Below are positions 2,201 to 23,617 of a DNA stretch of 23,617 bases, piece by piece. The stretch comes from a virus. The DNA is taken from positions 1 to 23,617 of IMG/VR virus record IMGVR_UViG_3300013103_000064; one strand, written 5' to 3'. The position numbers and the translations under genes were made by a program. The notes beneath the pieces were generated by a model. It worked only from the letters and a program-made list of their open reading frames with translations. It was not told where the DNA came from and did not search any database. Within the stretch, counting starts at the first letter, position 1. Each line of letters begins with the position of its first letter.

Positions 2201-2569
2201 TCATAGGAGCCCCTCAGACGTCTTAAACCTATATACCCTACCCTTGGTATGCCTTGAACTACGTTCGTGGCCTGTACCCCTATAGGATTGAGTCTCCTGG
2301 AGGATATACTCTACTTGTTTCCAGTCCCACACCACTCCGACTATACATCCAGCCTTTTTAAGGTGTTTGTGACGGAGTTTCTGGATTGGCGACGGCTCAT
2401 CCTTAGATGTGCGCTTAACCTCGAACCAATACGATATACCCTTGAGTATAAAGTGGATGTCGGGGATGCCTGTGGGACTGGGTGGATGTTTGTATACAAA
2501 GCCCTTCTTATACTGGGCCTTGAGTTTAGTTATTATCTCAGACTGTATGGCCGACTCAAGTCTACTCAT
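2201..2569 (-). CDS. VRR-NUC domain nuclease
   Basis: This 122-residue protein matches the VRR-NUC branch of the PD-(D/E)xK nuclease fold, common in phage replication modules. The N-terminus (MSRLESAIQSEIITKLK) has the family's starting helix. It is followed by the catalytic GIPDIHF (about residues 34-40), the WFEVKR strand with the E-x-K pair, and an IQKLRHKHLKKAG helix carrying the conserved Gln. Its ATG overlaps the end of the helicase gene by 8 nt (TATGAGTAG), so the two are translationally coupled. VRR-NUC domains cut branched DNA in other systems, and here it probably partners the SF2 helicase; that role is inferred. The last 25 or so residues are basic and not part of the core. They overlap a 24-bp stretch with a near-copy upstream of the GIY-YIG gene. 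Confidence 0.88.
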   Translation of the reverse strand: MSRLESAIQSEIITKLKAQYKKGFVYKHPPSPTGIPDIHFILKGISYWFEVKRTSKDEPSPIQKLRHKHLKKAGCIVGVVWDWKQVEYILQETQSYRGTGHERSSRHTKGRVYRFKTSEGLL

Positions 2570-3740
2570 ACCATCGCCTTGTGAACTTCTCTTTACCAGT
2601 GGCTACGTCATACACATGTTGGTCGATGTCTCCAGCGATTAAGAAGTGTACTGTGATTGGGTCCTTACGGTTTATGTTCATCTGCCTAGCACGAACTTGA
2701 ATGTAGGTGCTTGAGGCAAATGGATGACTGTAAATAACCATGTCCTTGAAGTGGGAGTAATCGACGCCCTCACTATTACGTGTTGTGCTTCCTGTGTGAG
2801 GAAAAATACTTTTGATATACTCTTGCTCAGCCTTAAAGTAGGCGAGGATGATAGTTGTCTTAGGATTAAAGTTACGCTTAATGTATTCGACCTTTGGGTT
2901 CTCTTTGAAACTGTATACCTTTTCTTCCTCATCCTTAATAAACCCGCCCGATACTTGTCGGAGCTTCTGGGACATCTTCGCTGGGGTATCACCGAGGAAT
3001 AAGCGTGAACCCTTCTCAACGTACAACTTTTTCTTAAGCTTCTTAATAAATTCCGTCTGCTGTTTAGGGAGTGTAACCCGATGCAGTTTGTCAACCGCTT
3101 CATGGACGTGACCCCCTTCGGCTCTTGTGATACTGACAACATACTTATTTACTTCCTTAAAAATCTTCTTATCTTTCATGCGGTCATACTTAGGTACGTC
3201 GAACCCGTTAATCTTTATCTTGTAAGGATGACCATACTCAGCGAACCACCTATTAAACTGCCAATCCAGCCTGACCTCTTGAAACCGTTTCCAGGGACTC
3301 CATGAGCTCAGTGAAAGCGTCGGATATAAGTTCGCGTAAGTCTCTGGCGTTAAGGTGCCCGAGCTGAAAACGATGTGAGAGTTCGTGGTAACGTGCTTCA
3401 AATCTTTCCAGAGCTGAGACATCTTCGGGTACCCTCCTATCCATCGGTGACTCTCGTCTAGGACCACTAGGTCGTAAGGCTCTGATGATGGCGTCAAGTT
3501 CTTTACTTGATGGTAGTTCGTCAACGTCACCTTCAACCCCAAAGACAATACCGCTTTCGTTATGTCCGATAAGGCTGACTTTTGTGTTACCACCAATACG
3601 TTTTTGTAATGCTTCGATAACATCAAGAAACTTATCGTCTTCCCCGACCTCGGTTGACCCGAGAGTATCGCTAGCTTGTGCTTCTTTAACTTTTTTAGTA
3701 GCTTCTTTGTGGCCCGTACCTGGTGTGGTTGAGGTGTCAT
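2562..3740 (-). CDS. SF2 (DEAD/DEAH-like) DNA helicase
   Basis: A 392-residue phage-type superfamily 2 helicase. Motif I is SGQPRSGKT (27-35), motif Ia VVTQKSA (50-56), motif II LDESH (94-98) and motif III SSGT (126-129). The second RecA-like domain follows, with TTIILAYFKAEQEYIKSIF and a motif VI-like YIQVRARQMNINR. The ATG has GGAG 8 nt upstream. Helicases of this type usually sit beside VRR-NUC genes in podovirus replication modules, as here. Residues 1-162, including motifs I-III, are encoded in DNA that is also open in the 263-codon frame starting upstream. The enzyme probably unwinds or remodels replication and recombination intermediates. Confidence 0.9.
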   Translation of the reverse strand: MTPQPHQVRATKKLLKKLKKHKLAILSGQPRSGKTISFLMLSKHYKNVLVVTQKSALSDITKAVLSLGLKVTLTNYHQVKNLTPSSEPYDLVVLDESHRWIGGYPKMSQLWKDLKHVTTNSHIVFSSGTLTPETYANLYPTLSLSSWSPWKRFQEVRLDWQFNRWFAEYGHPYKIKINGFDVPKYDRMKDKKIFKEVNKYVVSITRAEGGHVHEAVDKLHRVTLPKQQTEFIKKLKKKLYVEKGSRLFLGDTPAKMSQKLRQVSGGFIKDEEEKVYSFKENPKVEYIKRNFNPKTTIILAYFKAEQEYIKSIFPHTGSTTRNSEGVDYSHFKDMVIYSHPFASSTYIQVRARQMNINRKDPITVHFLIAGDIDQHVYDVATGKEKFTRRWYE

Positions 3741-4044
3741 ATTGGTATCTCCGTTTTCTATCCATTAGTTGTTGACCTATTGTGTTGAGGTCTGTACACG
3801 CTTGACACTTGCAAGCATACTCATGCGACTCACAAACATTATACAAATCTTCGTTGATGTCTACTGCATGTTTGGTACCAGCACCTAGGTTAACTTTACG
3901 CTCAGTCTCTGACCGCTCGGCGGTCAACTTGATGTCCTCACGAAACTCATCCAGCTCAGCCTGTGTTGGTGCGTGTGCTCTATCTTTATCGTGTGCTCTG
4001 GCCTCGTCTAAGGCCTTTTGTATTAAATCAAATTGTGCTTCCAT
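3253..4044 (-). CDS. Unknown protein overlapping the helicase gene in another frame
   Basis: A 263-codon frame whose ATG follows the previous stop at once (TAACATG). Its first ~101 codons are the only open frame between the 55-residue gene and the helicase, so at least this part is probably translated. They encode a charged helical region and a Cys cluster (C71, C78, C80, C83; C-x6-C-x-C-x2-C) that might bind zinc. The frame then stays open for 488 nt inside the helicase gene. That part is not low-complexity and looks protein-like, with amphipathic stretches such as FLDVIEALQKRI and ARDLRELISDAFTELMESLE. A copy of the dispersed palindrome is inside it, coding LTAERS. I recognise no family. 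The 5' part is likely real; the overlapping 3' part is uncertain. Confidence 0.6.
   Translation of the reverse strand: MEAQFDLIQKALDEARAHDKDRAHAPTQAELDEFREDIKLTAERSETERKVNLGAGTKHAVDINEDLYNVCESHEYACKCQACTDLNTIGQQLMDRKRRYQYDTSTTPGTGHKEATKKVKEAQASDTLGSTEVGEDDKFLDVIEALQKRIGGNTKVSLIGHNESGIVFGVEGDVDELPSSKELDAIIRALRPSGPRRESPMDRRVPEDVSALERFEARYHELSHRFQLGHLNARDLRELISDAFTELMESLETVSRGQAGLAV
3910..3926. repeat. Dispersed palindrome, copy 2
   Basis: TGACCGCTCGGCGGTCA: perfect 7-nt arms around TCG. This is the only copy fully inside a coding sequence (the 263-codon frame, about codons 40-45). Confidence 0.8.
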
Positions 4045-4045
4045 G

Positions 4046-4213
4046 TTAGTCCTTTTTTACAAATTGCTTTGATAGTTTGTCGAATTGTTCGTTTGTCATT
4101 GATAACTTAATTCCTTCGCCAGATGCCAGGGTTAACACCTCGGCACGCTTTATATCCGTAGCAGTGAGTATGATGTAACACTCCCCAGCAACAATACTTT
4201 TTGACATTGTCAT
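4046..4213 (-). CDS. Small protein of unknown function (55 aa)
   Basis: A 55-residue frame beginning MTMSKSIVAGECYIILTATD and ending KLSKQFVKKD. A GGAG site lies 8 nt upstream, overlapping the exonuclease stop. Its stop is 1 nt before the next ATG. It fills the gap between the exonuclease and the 263-codon gene exactly, the packing expected of a real gene. A beta-alpha-beta arrangement is suggested by the hydrophobic YIILTATD strand and the later EQFDKLSKQF helix. I do not recognise a family. Confidence 0.7.
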   Translation of the reverse strand: MTMSKSIVAGECYIILTATDIKRAEVLTLASGEGIKLSMTNEQFDKLSKQFVKKD

Positions 4214-4216
4214 CTG

Positions 4217-4975
4217 TTATTCTCCAAACAGTTTTAGTCCACCCTTCGGCGTCCATTGTTCCATCGAAGTTAATCGACGTGTCAGTATTGCATCTTCCTC
4301 AGTCATTCCCGCTACTTTGTATGCTTTGAGTACACCCTCCCAGTTGTGACCCTGGCTCACGAGTATGTTCTCAGCGGTTTTAATACCTACCATAGGCATA
4401 CCCTTGATGTTATCGTCACGGTCACCAGCGAGGTACTGTAACAGGTTGAAGTGATGCGCGTCCTCTTTACTTGTGCGTACCCAGTGCTTACGTGTGTAGT
4501 AGCAGTCGAACCAGATACCAGGTACCCCTTTGAGTAGGTCCTTATCTCCAGAGAACCCTATCGCACCCTTACGTACATAGTACGCGACAACATCATCGGC
4601 CTCGACGTTCTGCTTAGGTGAGAACTTCTTACGGGCCCACTTGCGTAGCTTCTTGAACTGCTCGCTCATCGGTCGGCCCTTGCGGTTACCTTTGTAGTCG
4701 GGGTAGATGTCGTAACGAAAGTTACTTTTATCTCCGATGACAATCATCGTTTCGCCAGTGGTCCACTTGTATGAGATGCTCTCCACCTGGGCTAGCTTCT
4801 CATACTCTTCGACCACGGCCATGAACTTAGCCTTAAGCTTCTTGAGCTCAGCCTTTCCGTCTGTTACCTTGAGACTCGTACCACCTAGTGACGGCGTGAA
4901 CGCCTGTGAAGGGTCGCTCGCTACCGCATACAAAATATGGTCCGCATCTATACAAATTAGTTTCTTTTTTCCCAT
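4217..4975 (-). CDS. 5'-3' exonuclease / flap endonuclease (FEN/PIN fold)
   Basis: A 252-residue nuclease of the FEN family, the group that includes T7 gp6, T4 RNase H and the DNA polymerase I 5'-nuclease domain. Metal-binding acidic residues are in place: ICIDAD (D10, D12), EADDVV (125-130), SGDKDLL (142-148) and GDRDDN (184-189). The NFRYDIYPDYKGNRKGRP segment (85-102) is the arch/substrate region. GMPMVGIKTAENIL is the helix-3-turn-helix DNA-binding motif. It should remove RNA primers and 5' flaps during phage replication. GGAG lies 9 nt before the ATG. The gene sits downstream of the split polymerase in the same operon. Confidence 0.95.
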   Translation of the reverse strand: MGKKKLICIDADHILYAVASDPSQAFTPSLGGTSLKVTDGKAELKKLKAKFMAVVEEYEKLAQVESISYKWTTGETMIVIGDKSNFRYDIYPDYKGNRKGRPMSEQFKKLRKWARKKFSPKQNVEADDVVAYYVRKGAIGFSGDKDLLKGVPGIWFDCYYTRKHWVRTSKEDAHHFNLLQYLAGDRDDNIKGMPMVGIKTAENILVSQGHNWEGVLKAYKVAGMTEEDAILTRRLTSMEQWTPKGGLKLFGE

Positions 4976-5061: not shown

Positions 5062-5287
5062 ACTTTTTGTTCTTCTTGAGATACTTTAGGATGACCTTGC
5101 GGTCCTTCTCCTGGTGCACGTATGGAACGCTACCAAATATCTCACAGATGATACGTAGATGAGCTGGCTTAGGCTTGATGCCACACTGTGATACCCAAGC
5201 ACCGACCGAGCTGTATATCATAAACTCACCAGGCGTCTTAACATACTTATTTTTTAGCTTTTTTCTTAGTTGCTTGTAAGGTTTCAT
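5054..5287 (-). CDS. Small basic protein of unknown function (77 aa)
   Basis: A 77-residue lysine-rich protein with AGGAGG 8 nt before the ATG. The start overlaps the last 41 nt of the polymerase C-terminal gene. It begins MKPYKQLRKKLKNKYVKTPG, has a central region with SSVGAWVSQCGIKPKPAHLR, and ends in KKNKKYD. The charge suggests nucleic-acid contact, and its place between the polymerase and the exonuclease suggests a replication accessory role; both are inferences. No known domain was recognised. Confidence 0.75.
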   Translation of the reverse strand: MKPYKQLRKKLKNKYVKTPGEFMIYSSVGAWVSQCGIKPKPAHLRIICEIFGSVPYVHQEKDRKVILKYLKKNKKYD

Positions 5288-6107
5288 ACGTTGTACCTCC
5301 TAGTAAATCATACTGGCGTATAGCGTACGTTATGTACCACTCATAATCCAGGTCACACGGTATCACTTCGGGTAGGTCCAGCATAGGTGCGCAGTCATCC
5401 GTTAGCGGTACCTTGTTATGGTTCCCTGTAGCGTTTGGCTTCACGTAGTGCATCGACTTACCGCTTTTGTTATAGTACCAGCGAACCACTTTACCGATAG
5501 GCTTGTCATCATAGGTCGCACCACCGCGAACCACTCTAGCTGAGGCAAACTGAGCAACGTCTTTACACTTGCGTATTGTCTTCTCTATTGGAGTGGCATT
5601 TTCTATGAAGTCACGCACTGCGGTATAACAGATTGGTACTGCTGGGTTCTTCTTGAGTATAGGCATGTCCTCGATGCGCTTGTAAGCACCCTTAGACTTA
5701 ACGTGGTCGCTATACTTAGCTACGTAGTTGTTGACGTCACGAGCATGTAATGATACGTACTCATCGTTCTCCATTGTGTAGCCTGTTATCTTCTCCCACT
5801 TCTTGATTATCTTGAGTGCTTCTTTAACCTTCTTTCGAGGGCAGTAATATTCAACACCATCTGTGTTAGCTGATACGACTGGGATGTTCGCCATCTCAAG
5901 CTTCTCAATGAGCATGAGTAGTGCGAGCTGACCCGTAAACGTCACGGCCAGTAGTAGGTCTGGAGCGTACAGTTTAGAATACTTTGAGCCGAACTTTCCG
6001 AAACTTCCATTTATCGAGATTTTTTTACTCTCAGCATCTCCTAAACTACTGTACATTAACGCTTTGTATTTTTTAATATCAGCTTCTATATCTGCCCGTT
6101 TTCTCAT
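5247..6107 (-). CDS. Family-B-like DNA polymerase, C-terminal half (split gene)
   Basis: The C-terminal half of a phage DNA polymerase (286 aa from the chosen start). Motif B is KKISINGSFGKFGSKYSKLY (28-47) in the fingers. Motif C is SANTDGVEYY (79-88) in the palm, with Asn-Thr-Asp in place of the usual Asp-Thr-Asp of family B, as I recall for this podovirus polymerase group. NNYVAKY (126-132) resembles the KxY motif, and the rest is the thumb. I start at the ATG of MRKRADIEAD because GGGAGGA lies 9 nt upstream; a longer frame to 6164 would begin inside the HNH gene with no good site. Exonuclease and motif A are missing here and lie in the 6575-7654 gene. The two products must associate, as known for split T4-type polymerases. 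Confidence 0.9.
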   Translation of the reverse strand: MRKRADIEADIKKYKALMYSSLGDAESKKISINGSFGKFGSKYSKLYAPDLLLAVTFTGQLALLMLIEKLEMANIPVVSANTDGVEYYCPRKKVKEALKIIKKWEKITGYTMENDEYVSLHARDVNNYVAKYSDHVKSKGAYKRIEDMPILKKNPAVPICYTAVRDFIENATPIEKTIRKCKDVAQFASARVVRGGATYDDKPIGKVVRWYYNKSGKSMHYVKPNATGNHNKVPLTDDCAPMLDLPEVIPCDLDYEWYITYAIRQYDLLGGTTYETLQATKKKAKK

Positions 6108-6597
6108 CTCGTTTAGTCCTCCCTGTGTTCTTTTTCTTTTTGAGTCCTGACTTCCAAACGGCAACCGCTTCTTCTAGTGTATACGTTTCCCCTAGATAGG
6201 TTCTAACGCCGTTAATCTGTTTACGTACTGTGAATCTACCTTTCGTATCGCTGAATGATATACCACTGACCCCCGTGGTGTTTGTCTTGTATATACGCTT
6301 GTTATTATTATTCTCTTTACGAGTTACCCATTCACAGTTTGATGGCTTGTAACCTTTGTTGTTATTAATACGTTCTAATGTGAGTTTCTTATGGGGTTTT
6401 AATCCCATGTCTAATGCAAATCTCTCAAAGGATTCACGCCATTTTCTACATACTTTAATACCCCGCCCACCGTAATCACGATATTGGTCACTGTCTGGGT
6501 TGTAACATCTATCTCGTAGGTTAACCCATGTGTTATATAACGGGTGCTTACGACATTGATAACCATGGATAAGCTTATTTCGCTTGTGATAGTTCAT
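6079..6597 (-). CDS. HNH homing-type endonuclease with AP2 domain, inserted in the DNA polymerase
   Basis: A 172-residue protein of the common phage HNH group. HPLYNTWVNLRDRCYNP, YRDYGGRGIKVCRKWR and LTLERINNNKGYKPSNCEW (about 18-90) form the HNH region. GVSGISFSDTKGRFTV to YTLEEAVAVW (109-148) is an AP2-like DNA-binding domain. The tail is Lys/Arg-rich. It has its own start (AAGGAG 8 nt upstream). Its ends overlap the polymerase N-terminal gene by 23 nt and the C-terminal gene by 29 nt. There is no room for an intron core outside the coding sequence, so it looks free-standing. Such enzymes cut uninterrupted alleles of the target gene and spread by repair; the likely target is polymerase DNA between motifs A and B. 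Confidence 0.92.
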   Translation of the reverse strand: MNYHKRNKLIHGYQCRKHPLYNTWVNLRDRCYNPDSDQYRDYGGRGIKVCRKWRESFERFALDMGLKPHKKLTLERINNNKGYKPSNCEWVTRKENNNNKRIYKTNTTGVSGISFSDTKGRFTVRKQINGVRTYLGETYTLEEAVAVWKSGLKKKKNTGRTKRDEKTGRYRS

Positions 6598-7654
6598 GCT
6601 CTAACTCCTTGATTTTAGAAGCGTATTTTTTACCGTCGCTCTTGTTTTGCAAACGGCTCTCTACGATGTGATTATACACCGACAGAAAGGCTTTAGTAAG
6701 TTGAGGTGGGTATAGTTCTGAGTTGATGATTATACGTGGGTAGAACGATGCCACATCGGCGTTACGCATGACGTTCTTTTTGTCACTGATAACTGTGATG
6801 CTTGACTCCATAGAGTGAAGGCCACCCAGTCCCACCTGGAACTGAGCTTCGCCTAATCTTATGACCGTGTTCTTAAGCCAGTCTGGATTGACAGGTTTCC
6901 CATTAGCTGGGTTAACCTCGAACGGGTCAGCCTCCAGGTTCTTAACCAGGCGCTTGAGCTCTGGGCTTTTGAACTTCACAAAGTCTGGGGCCTGGTAGGT
7001 TACCGAACTCGGCACCTTACCTTTGGACCCACCGCCTAACTCAGATATAATAACAGCCTCAGCTACTTGCGCATCCGATTTACTTCTGAGGTCCAGCTCG
7101 TATTGTTTGCTCATACGCTCACGTAACTTGATGGACGGTTCAATCTTACGATACAGGTCCCAGGTTAAGATGAGGTCGTTGCTACAATATTTCTTAAGCT
7201 CCTTCATCTCAGCCTTAGTGACCTTCTTATCCCAGTCTACAGGTGTATCCCATAGCTTCTGAGAGAACAGTCTGGATCCGTATATCTTTAGGCCAGCGTT
7301 CGGGTCTGGAGCTGGTTCCTTGAGGTCGATGTGGTCGCACCAACTCAGCTCCTTAATGTCTCCTCTGTACATCTTCCAATGGGGTGTGTTACTCACGATG
7401 ATAGCTTGAGACATCGTATACAATTCGAGACATGTTCGACCAGCTAAAGCACCCGCCGTTATAGGGAAGTCATAACGCACCCCGTTAAATGTGATGATAG
7501 TATCCTTAGCAAGTAGGCTACGGAGCTCCAGGGCGTCCGAACTACTCAAGGGGATATGCTTACCCTTCATCTCTATTGTTTGGACCTCACCAGCCTCTGA
7601 CATGAACGCAAACAGGGTGTAGTTTTTAAGTACCTCTATGTCATATGTCTTCAT
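6575..7654 (-). CDS. Family-B-like DNA polymerase, N-terminal half (exonuclease + motif A)
   Basis: A 359-residue protein holding the 3'-5' proofreading exonuclease and the start of the palm. Exo I is YDIEVLKN (D5, E7), Exo II ITFNGVRYDFP (54-64) and Exo III KKYCSNDL (154-161). The family's DHIDLKEPAP and LKIYGSRLFSQKLWDTPVDW motifs are present, and motif A is DVASFYPRI (300-308) with its catalytic Asp. It stops after an added KIKELEHELSQAK tail, before motif B. Motifs B and C are in the separate 5247-6107 gene, beyond an HNH gene. The full enzyme resembles polymerases of podoviruses such as the F116 and Bcep groups, as far as motifs show. The ATG is 1 nt after the stop of the 47-residue gene. 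Confidence 0.93.
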   Translation of the reverse strand: MKTYDIEVLKNYTLFAFMSEAGEVQTIEMKGKHIPLSSSDALELRSLLAKDTIITFNGVRYDFPITAGALAGRTCLELYTMSQAIIVSNTPHWKMYRGDIKELSWCDHIDLKEPAPDPNAGLKIYGSRLFSQKLWDTPVDWDKKVTKAEMKELKKYCSNDLILTWDLYRKIEPSIKLRERMSKQYELDLRSKSDAQVAEAVIISELGGGSKGKVPSSVTYQAPDFVKFKSPELKRLVKNLEADPFEVNPANGKPVNPDWLKNTVIRLGEAQFQVGLGGLHSMESSITVISDKKNVMRNADVASFYPRIIINSELYPPQLTKAFLSVYNHIVESRLQNKSDGKKYASKIKELEHELSQAK

Positions 7655-7655
7655 G

Positions 7656-7799
7656 TTACATACCCTGTGATTTAAGCCAATCGCTAGCCTTGCGCATTAG
7701 TGTTGACCGCTTCTTGTTTTTCATAAACGGTATATCGCTAATGTAGAAGTACCACATCTTAGCCTCTTCGTTCCATCGTATCATATATTCATCGTGCAT
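7656..7799 (-). CDS. Small protein of unknown function (47 aa)
   Basis: A 47-residue frame beginning MHDEYMIRWNEEAKMWYFYI and ending DWLKSQGM. A GAGGAG site lies 7 nt upstream inside the previous small gene, and the stop is 1 nt before the polymerase start (TAACATG). Tight packing on both sides supports translation. It is rich in aromatic residues (WN, MWYFYI, DW) with a basic middle (MKNKKRSTLMRK), and no transmembrane segment is evident. Function unknown. Confidence 0.7.
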   Translation of the reverse strand: MHDEYMIRWNEEAKMWYFYISDIPFMKNKKRSTLMRKASDWLKSQGM

Positions 7800-15100: not shown

Positions 15101-15445
15101 ATGAGAGAGTGTTTCATTGAAGATGTGGGTCATCTGTACGTTATTGCTGATGGGAAGTACGGTAGCCCCTGGATTAAGGTTGGTCGTTCAACAAGACCCG
15201 CGAAGAGGCTCGTTGAGTATAACTCGTCGTTCCCTGAGGATAGACTAGAGTTCGCGCACCTATCGTGTGAGCTGTATAACTTGAGCGAGTGTGAGGCTAT
15301 GCTTATCGCTGGACTCAAGGACCTTAGGTCAGTCACGTTTGCTGAGGGTCGTAGAGAGTGGGTCAAACACCGCTATAGTAAAAGTGCGATGGTCGCTACC
15401 GTGAAGGGTATCATCGACACGTTGGAGAAGACTTATGCCCACTGA
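15101..15445 (+). CDS. GIY-YIG-type nuclease (T5orf172-like) between the terminase subunits
   Basis: A 114-residue protein with AGGAGG 5 nt before the ATG. GHLYVIADG (10-18) stands for the GIY strand, WIKVGRSTRPAKRLVEYN (24-41) for the YIG strand with its conserved Lys-Gly-Arg and following Arg, LSECEAMLIAGL (61-72) carries the catalytic-type Glu, and GRREWV (83-88) matches the T5orf172/MUG113 subgroup end motif. It is therefore a probable GIY-YIG nuclease without extra DNA-binding domains. Its last codons overlap the large terminase start by 11 nt. It may be a homing-type enzyme or a packaging-linked nuclease; HNH proteins next to terminases are known to assist packaging in other phages. Confidence 0.75.
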   Translation: MRECFIEDVGHLYVIADGKYGSPWIKVGRSTRPAKRLVEYNSSFPEDRLEFAHLSCELYNLSECEAMLIAGLKDLRSVTFAEGRREWVKHRYSKSAMVATVKGIIDTLEKTYAH

Positions 15446-23392: not shown

Positions 23393-23617
23393 ATGTTTAA
23401 GTTTATTATGATGATGCTAAGTGTATCAATGATGTTTGTAGATGGCGGTGACGCTGGTGGTGGAGCTGGTGGTGGAGCTGGTGGTGGAGCTGGTGGCGAA
23501 GCTGGTGGCGAAGCTGGTGGCGAAGCTGGTGGCGAAGCTGGTGGCGAAGCTGGTGGCGAAGCTGGTGGCGAAGCTCCTAGTGCAGAGTCGATGATTCTAG
23601 GTAAGTTCAAAGACCAG
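23393..23617 (+). CDS. Capsid scaffolding (assembly) protein, N-terminal part only
   Basis: The first 75 codons of a gene running out of the window. AAAGGA lies about 6 nt before the ATG. Residues 1-16 are hydrophobic and Met-rich (MFKFIMMMLSVSMMFV), followed by 10 tetrapeptide repeats: three GGGA and seven GGEA (residues 22-61). Then PSAESMILGKFKDQ resembles the conserved start of T7-type scaffold proteins (LGKFK-x-x-x-x-L-x-x-AY). Place after portal and presumably before the major capsid gene agrees. The long flexible repeat and the hydrophobic start are unusual for a scaffold protein. A later start at MMFVDGG is possible but has no good ribosome site. Confidence 0.65.
   Translation, partial: MFKFIMMMLSVSMMFVDGGDAGGGAGGGAGGGAGGEAGGEAGGEAGGEAGGEAGGEAGGEAPSAESMILGKFKDQ
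23456..23575 (+). repeat. Ten 12-bp tandem repeats coding GGGA/GGEA
   Basis: Ten in-frame units: three of GGTGGTGGAGCT, then seven of GGTGGCGAAGCT. The two types differ by a few bases, which suggests block expansion by slippage or unequal recombination. Confidence 0.95.

Follow-up and report, generated by a model that had tools for sequence, protein, structure and literature searches.

A viral family-B DNA polymerase gene divided at the fingers hairpin by a probable homing endonuclease gene, and the recurrence of this break among its relatives

Divided replication genes and their closest described examples

Replication genes that are interrupted by the gene for an endonuclease have been described before. 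The closest cases are the DNA polymerases of T4-like phages, which a first-pass annotation of the locus reported here had already named as its nearest precedent. In Aeromonas phage 25, a seg endonuclease gene lies between the 43A and 43B cistrons, whose products co-purify with polymerase activity (PMC2988022). Phage 44RR2.8t also makes its family-B polymerase as two proteins, with 43A ending past the fingers helix that carries the R-x3-K element and 43B starting before motif B. In phage Aeh1, the free-standing HNH gene MobE separates nrdA-a from nrdA-b without an intron, and the resulting halves form a functional enzyme (PMC2988022). The PolB gene of the Pseudomonas jumbo phage MIJ3 is similarly divided into two parts by an HNH gene, which in this instance is flanked by intein blocks (PMC6892783). 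In the OM43 phages MEP401 and MEP402 and their relatives, a small unknown ORF splits the polymerase gene recurrently within the group (PMC10580990). Among cellular enzymes, the family-B polymerase PolB of Methanothermobacter thermautotrophicus is naturally encoded by two genes (Kelman et al. 1999, cited in PMC3984812). Finally, reassembly of protein fragments through terminal extensions has been proposed for the split Cox2 of algae and alveolates (PMC5374615).

The locus described here resides in a stretch of viral DNA of 23,617 nucleotides (IMG/VR record IMGVR_UViG_3300013103_000064, positions 1 to 23,617; hereafter the window). Like 44RR2.8t, it appears to encode a family-B phage polymerase as two proteins, gp43A and gp43B in the case of 44RR2.8t, and the break falls at the corresponding place. 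However, the shared place of the break does not extend to the polymerase family, since both halves in the window fall in PHROG 1252 and the T4 gp43 family is absent among the matches listed for them. Moreover, the two pieces of the 44RR2.8t gene are separated by a short untranslated spacer without an endonuclease, whereas here the gap is taken up by endonuclease frames, which often extend into the halves. The PHROG 1252 alleles also differ from T4-like 43A/43B in that HNH and GIY-YIG genes occupy one site and near-identical intact alleles are known. The Aeh1 system parallels the window in that an HNH gene splits an essential gene of nucleotide metabolism, but the gene is that of a ribonucleotide reductase with a single described insertion, and recurring helical arms are not described in the account consulted. 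MIJ3 shares with the window an HNH gene between two PolB parts, but none of the intein blocks that flank the MIJ3 gene would fit in the window. The OM43 phages are alike, by description, in their recurrent split, but their inserted ORF is without a known homologue.

The present case is well supported. As an endonuclease-split replication gene it belongs to a known kind of arrangement, and what is unusual is its repetition, the common break point and the helical arms that move together with the endonuclease. In the open-access literature searched, we found no description of this polymerase family, of two endonuclease families at one fingertip site, or of arms moving with an endonuclease. Our main reading, to which we assign a probability of about 0.82, is that the locus carries a free-standing homing-endonuclease cassette and that, with no splicing involved, an antiparallel helical clamp brings the two pieces of the polymerase back together.

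Organization of the locus and position of the break

The HNH gene resides exactly between the two polymerase halves (Table 1). Read from the sequence, it overlaps the N half by 23 nt and the C half by 29 nt, so that the coordinates, frames and overlaps in the first-pass annotation are exact. A purine-rich stretch is found upstream of all three genes, in line with the separate ribosome sites noted there. The open frame of the C half extends upstream of its ATG at 6107 to a TTG at 6164. An accompanying suggestion, that a GAG-ATG microhomology at both ends marks the original insertion, had to be abandoned because both ATGs are start codons (of the HNH gene and the C half) and the motif is not common to other split alleles.

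Table 1. Features of the split polymerase locus, in coordinates of the window
Feature	Position	Strand	Basis
Polymerase N half (exonuclease domain, palm motif A, first fingers helix), 359 aa	6575..7654	-	phrog_1252 match; invariant residues present
HNH endonuclease gene, 172 aa, probable free-standing homing endonuclease	6079..6597	-	phrog_374 match; location of relatives
Polymerase C half (motifs B and C, remaining palm, thumb), 286 aa from ATG at 6107	5247..6107	-	phrog_1252 match
Motif A, DVASFYP, within N half	6737..6757	-	alignment, invariant columns
Motif B, KISINGSFGKFG, within C half	5988..6023	-	
Motif C, NTDG, within C half	5856..5867	-	
N-side arm, SDGKKYASKIKELEHEL, 3' of fingers R334-x3-K338 pair	6590..6640	-	counterpart is helix 326-361 of L058 model
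C-side arm, MRKRADIEADIKKYKALMYSSLGDAESK, 28 codons, ahead of motif-B lysine	6024..6107	-	
AGGG, weak ribosome-binding-like site of N half, 8 nt upstream	7663..7666	-	
AGGAG, ribosome-binding-like site of HNH gene, 7 nt upstream, within N-half codons	6605..6609	-	
GGGAGG, ribosome-binding-like site of C half, 10 nt upstream, within HNH codons	6118..6123	-	

The N half matches the PHROG 1252 profile 'DNA polymerase' (E=1.1e-81) over profile positions 56-404, and the C half matches the same profile (E=2.3e-79) over positions 398-650. Because these spans adjoin, the two halves represent consecutive parts of one family-B polymerase with nothing lost between them. The complementary matches bear out the earlier view of a family-B polymerase split in two, and the C-half profile matches family-B structures. 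The exonuclease motifs, motifs A, B and C, and the fingers R-x3-K and K-x3-N elements occur in consecutive order, and the alignment places the exonuclease motifs and motif A in the N half and motifs B and C in the C half, as first proposed. Alignment to unsplit homologues, which had been suggested as a check for missing residues, revealed none: the window halves retain 61 of the 62 positions that are invariant among 50 intact relatives, with a Tyr to Phe substitution as the sole departure.

In family-B polymerases, R-x3-K and motif B sit on two antiparallel fingers helices. The hairpin that these helices form is broken at its tip, between the R-x3-K helix and the motif-B helix; the earlier placement of the split between motifs A and B, in a charged helical stretch, was correct. 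Conservation in the N half ends with R334-x3-K338, and in the C half it begins with the motif B sequence KISINGS. Past its conserved fingers lysine, the N half runs on for approximately 21 residues, and its partner starts 28 residues ahead of motif B. An AlphaFold model of the unbroken long-arm relative L058 contains fingers helices at residues 326-361 and 366-399 joined by a four-residue turn (mean pLDDT 93.4), and it resembles KOD polymerase (E=1.5e-17) and other family-B polymerases. By comparison, the corresponding helices in the model of the intact short-linker relative L207 span residues 324-341 and 345-361. When 28 residues are counted back from the motif-B lysine, the start of the C half in the window corresponds to residue 362 of L058, at the turn. 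The arms display a heptad bias, which is weakest in the window among the arms compared. Most likely, the arms lengthen both fingers helices and the halves meet via an antiparallel helical clamp at the fingertip, a reading that draws on the model of the unbroken long-arm relative and on purifying selection on the halves of split relatives. It is likewise most likely, on the same grounds, that the two-chain form would work as a DNA polymerase.

The middle gene matches the HNH endonuclease family phrog_374 (E=3.6e-46) as well as phrog_3377 and phrog_8790, and homologues are present in INPHARED; its product has no HNH match in Pfam or NCBIfam. The original HNH-AP2 label is retained for its HNH part, and AP2 enters only via relatives, through weak PF00847 matches in L037 and L357. 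Position 89 of the window protein is E, which is rare (1 of 80 relatives), and by this residue the gene could be an inactive copy. Decay was also considered from N78, but this was ruled out because N is present in 22 of the 80 relatives.

Several other features of the window were recorded. Beside the polymerase, at positions 2201-4975 on the minus strand, are genes for a VRR-NUC-like endonuclease, a DEAD-type helicase and a 5'-3' exonuclease, which partly resemble those of Vibrio phage LP.1. A small gene with a T5orf172 domain (GIY-YIG-like; PF10544, E=1e-5) is located between the small and large terminase genes (15101-15445, plus strand); nucleases of the T5orf172 type have been investigated as homing endonucleases that phages carry close to essential genes (PMC10448857). 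Near the contig end, at 23453-23575, the 12-nt tandem repeat GCTGGTGGCGAA occurs in ten copies. The portal matches a podovirus-type head-tail adaptor family. This T7-like portal match (phrog_332) agrees with the podovirus label initially given to the virus, but the classified named phages with this polymerase, among those examined, are siphovirus-like (Queuovirinae, Casjensviridae).

Recurrence, insertion polymorphism and selection among relatives

Profile searches of IMG/VR and GTDB genomes yielded 261 distinct relatives with both anchors present. Profiles were needed for this purpose, as single-protein scans of IMG/VR with either half gave no matches. In this survey, which was picked by similarity to three split alleles and does not give unbiased frequencies, six of the 261 relatives are split at this hairpin and nearly all others are intact. 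The R-to-K spacing is exactly 48 nt in 212 of the 261, that is, without the N-side arm. Split alleles L037, L149 and L203 carry HNH genes that are 44-45% identical to that of the window, and L033, L154 and L180 carry GIY-YIG genes. When the endonucleases themselves were used for profile searches, the three best IMG/VR matches to HNH (L357, L358 and L037) were all inside this polymerase break, as were all 19 best matches to GIY-YIG. Three of these 19 are already-known loci, and clustering at 97% DNA identity sorts the remaining 16 into five groups.

Including the window, there are 14 distinct split alleles, six with HNH genes and eight with GIY-YIG genes. The first-pass annotation had given the split as one not known in a podovirus polymerase of this type; within this family it is not unusual, since 13 further distinct alleles have their break at this hairpin, five of them with related HNH genes and eight with unrelated GIY-YIG genes. 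In 12 of the 12 split alleles measured, a set that leaves out L444 and L446, the initiating Met of the C half lies 27-28 residues ahead of the motif-B lysine, and the break is flanked by helical arms that most intact relatives do not have.

Among isolates, a spread sample of 60 of the 708 records with such a polymerase contained no match span big enough for an endonuclease gene. The polymerases of PSV3 and cm3 are annotated in two pieces and were rejected as candidates, since no endonuclease gene lies between the pieces. Aeromonas phage phiWae15 (L437:3375-4106), the top-listed isolate match for HNH, was also rejected: its HNH gene is directly upstream of a polymerase and not inside a PHROG 1252 polymerase, and that polymerase resembles family A in sequence and shows no motif-B pattern of the family-B kind.

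Breaks at other places were also encountered. In L175 (3965-6121), a long-arm relative that is intact at the fingertip, the polymerase frame is broken just past the conserved sequence DVNNYIAV and is followed by a GIY-YIG gene, and this break is a candidate second insertion site in the same polymerase. A more distant polymerase, represented by L461 (1225-4220) and also by L462, L463 and L465, has its catalytic motif A (DWDVS / AYYPAIII) interrupted by a GIY-YIG gene, and approximately 200 nt of extra sequence precede that gene; no Rfam intron match was found in L461 at E<=1. Two related intact polymerases, L073 and L281, have fingertip linkers of 204-219 nt that are unlike simple coiled arms and are possibly remnants of past insertion.

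Four split alleles have close intact counterparts: L203 and L207 (94.9% protein identity), L154 and L201 (95.3%), L180 and L215 (96.6%), and L033 and L041 (86.7%). In every pair, the intact partner has the 48-nt linker and neither arms nor endonuclease, and therefore the endonuclease and arms move together. This amends the earlier description of the insertion as the endonuclease gene alone: where a relative can be matched with a near-identical intact allele, the inserted unit is the endonuclease plus its flanking helical arms. Between split and intact partners, DNA identity stays high until about 60-150 nt left of the R codon, drops near the junction and has mostly recovered within approximately 30 nt right of the motif-B lysine; most of the drop lies in roughly 60-120 nt left and 30 nt right of the site, as expected from co-conversion during homing. 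For an HNH allele related to that of the window, presence and absence are documented by the first pair (L203 versus L207). Because the best intact relative of the window, L014, reaches only 52%, the insertion event in the window itself is inferred from these relatives. On a FastTree phylogeny of polymerase bodies, with linkers excluded, parsimony gave seven state changes for seven split rows, a count on a quick tree that does not distinguish gain from loss.

An alternative order of events is that the long arms came first, as part of a permissive long-linker polymerase, and that endonucleases later settled at the loop with the arms outside the mobile unit. Intact long-arm linkers do occur without an endonuclease (L058, L256, L263, L337 and L352). 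However, the armless intact partners in the four pairs indicate that the arms arrived there with the endonuclease. Moreover, the GC content of the L033 arms (23%) follows that of the insert (29%) and not that of the host gene (47-58% in the polymerase bodies). We consider an arms-first origin unlikely as a general account, but both orders can apply at different times, with arms that were ancestral somewhere and later co-transferred.

A further alternative is that the insertion inactivated the gene and that the polymerase is being lost while the phage uses another one, and the record, a 23.6-kb fragment of the genome, leaves some room for this. The catalytic residues and the 61 of 62 invariant residues noted above are nevertheless intact in the window, and the split alleles found repeatedly across the family retain both halves. 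In addition, the four split/intact pairs have dN/dS values of 0.04-0.14 for both the N and the C half. A comparison of one split allele with another gave 0.137 (N half) and 0.085 (C half), and the comparison of their intact partners gave 0.113 and 0.118. These low values for both halves indicate that the split genes are maintained in the four relatives, the window itself being without a close relative. Taken together, these points make loss of the polymerase very unlikely.

Splicing and a proposed cassette mechanism

The halves could also be joined by RNA splicing if the insert were a group I intron, and HNH-bearing group I introns do occur in phage polymerase genes (PMC3428280; references in PMC10580990). 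In the window, however, the HNH frame fills the insert and overlaps both polymerase frames, which leaves no non-coding room for an intron core. Each measured C half has its own start codon at the fixed distance from motif B given above, which also argues against an intron. Searches with Rfam models gave no match at E<=10 within positions 5900-6750 of the window and no match at E<=1 in L203, L440 and L359. As a control for this E-value mode, the T4 td intron was found at E=2.5e-8 in a 2-kb stretch. The Rfam gathering threshold misses both T4 td and nrdB, and negatives at that level carry no weight. A spliced intron is thus highly improbable. The halves might instead be joined by a split intein whose two parts are separated by an endonuclease gene, as proposed for MIJ3 PolB, where the gene order is identical (PolB part, HNH, PolB part) and intein blocks are present (PMC6892783). 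This is barely credible here, because intact long-arm relatives appear from their sequences to fill the stretches that adjoin the break in the two halves with polymerase helix and so leave no space for intein domains.

The preferred reading, reassembly of the two pieces without splicing, can be set out as a series of predicted steps. The endonuclease would cut uninterrupted alleles at the fingertip codons. Repair off the interrupted allele would then copy in the endonuclease gene together with the flanking helical arms, and the corresponding insertion polymorphism is seen in relatives. The sequence signals suggest that two polymerase proteins would thereafter be made, probably on a single mRNA. 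The C half would use a start codon and ribosome site of its own, which lie within the final part of the endonuclease gene. The two proteins are predicted to rejoin through the fingertip helical clamp to form a two-subunit polymerase, and neither an intron nor an intein would be required.

A broader interpretation, whose chances we place slightly short of even, is that a mobile cassette composed of an endonuclease and two half-hairpin helices provides a third harmless home for such genes, besides introns and inteins. Such a cassette would convert one-chain fingers to a two-chain coiled clamp, HNH and GIY-YIG endonucleases would share the arm-bearing site, and intact long-arm polymerases might be relics or resistant alleles.

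The family offers a repeated natural experiment: 14 distinct alleles of a replicative polymerase are broken at one hairpin, and near-identical unbroken alleles can be set beside them. The persistence of an endonuclease in an essential gene without the help of a self-splicing element thereby becomes open to direct test, and the split alleles are a source of two-piece polymerases that already carry natural helical arms for docking.
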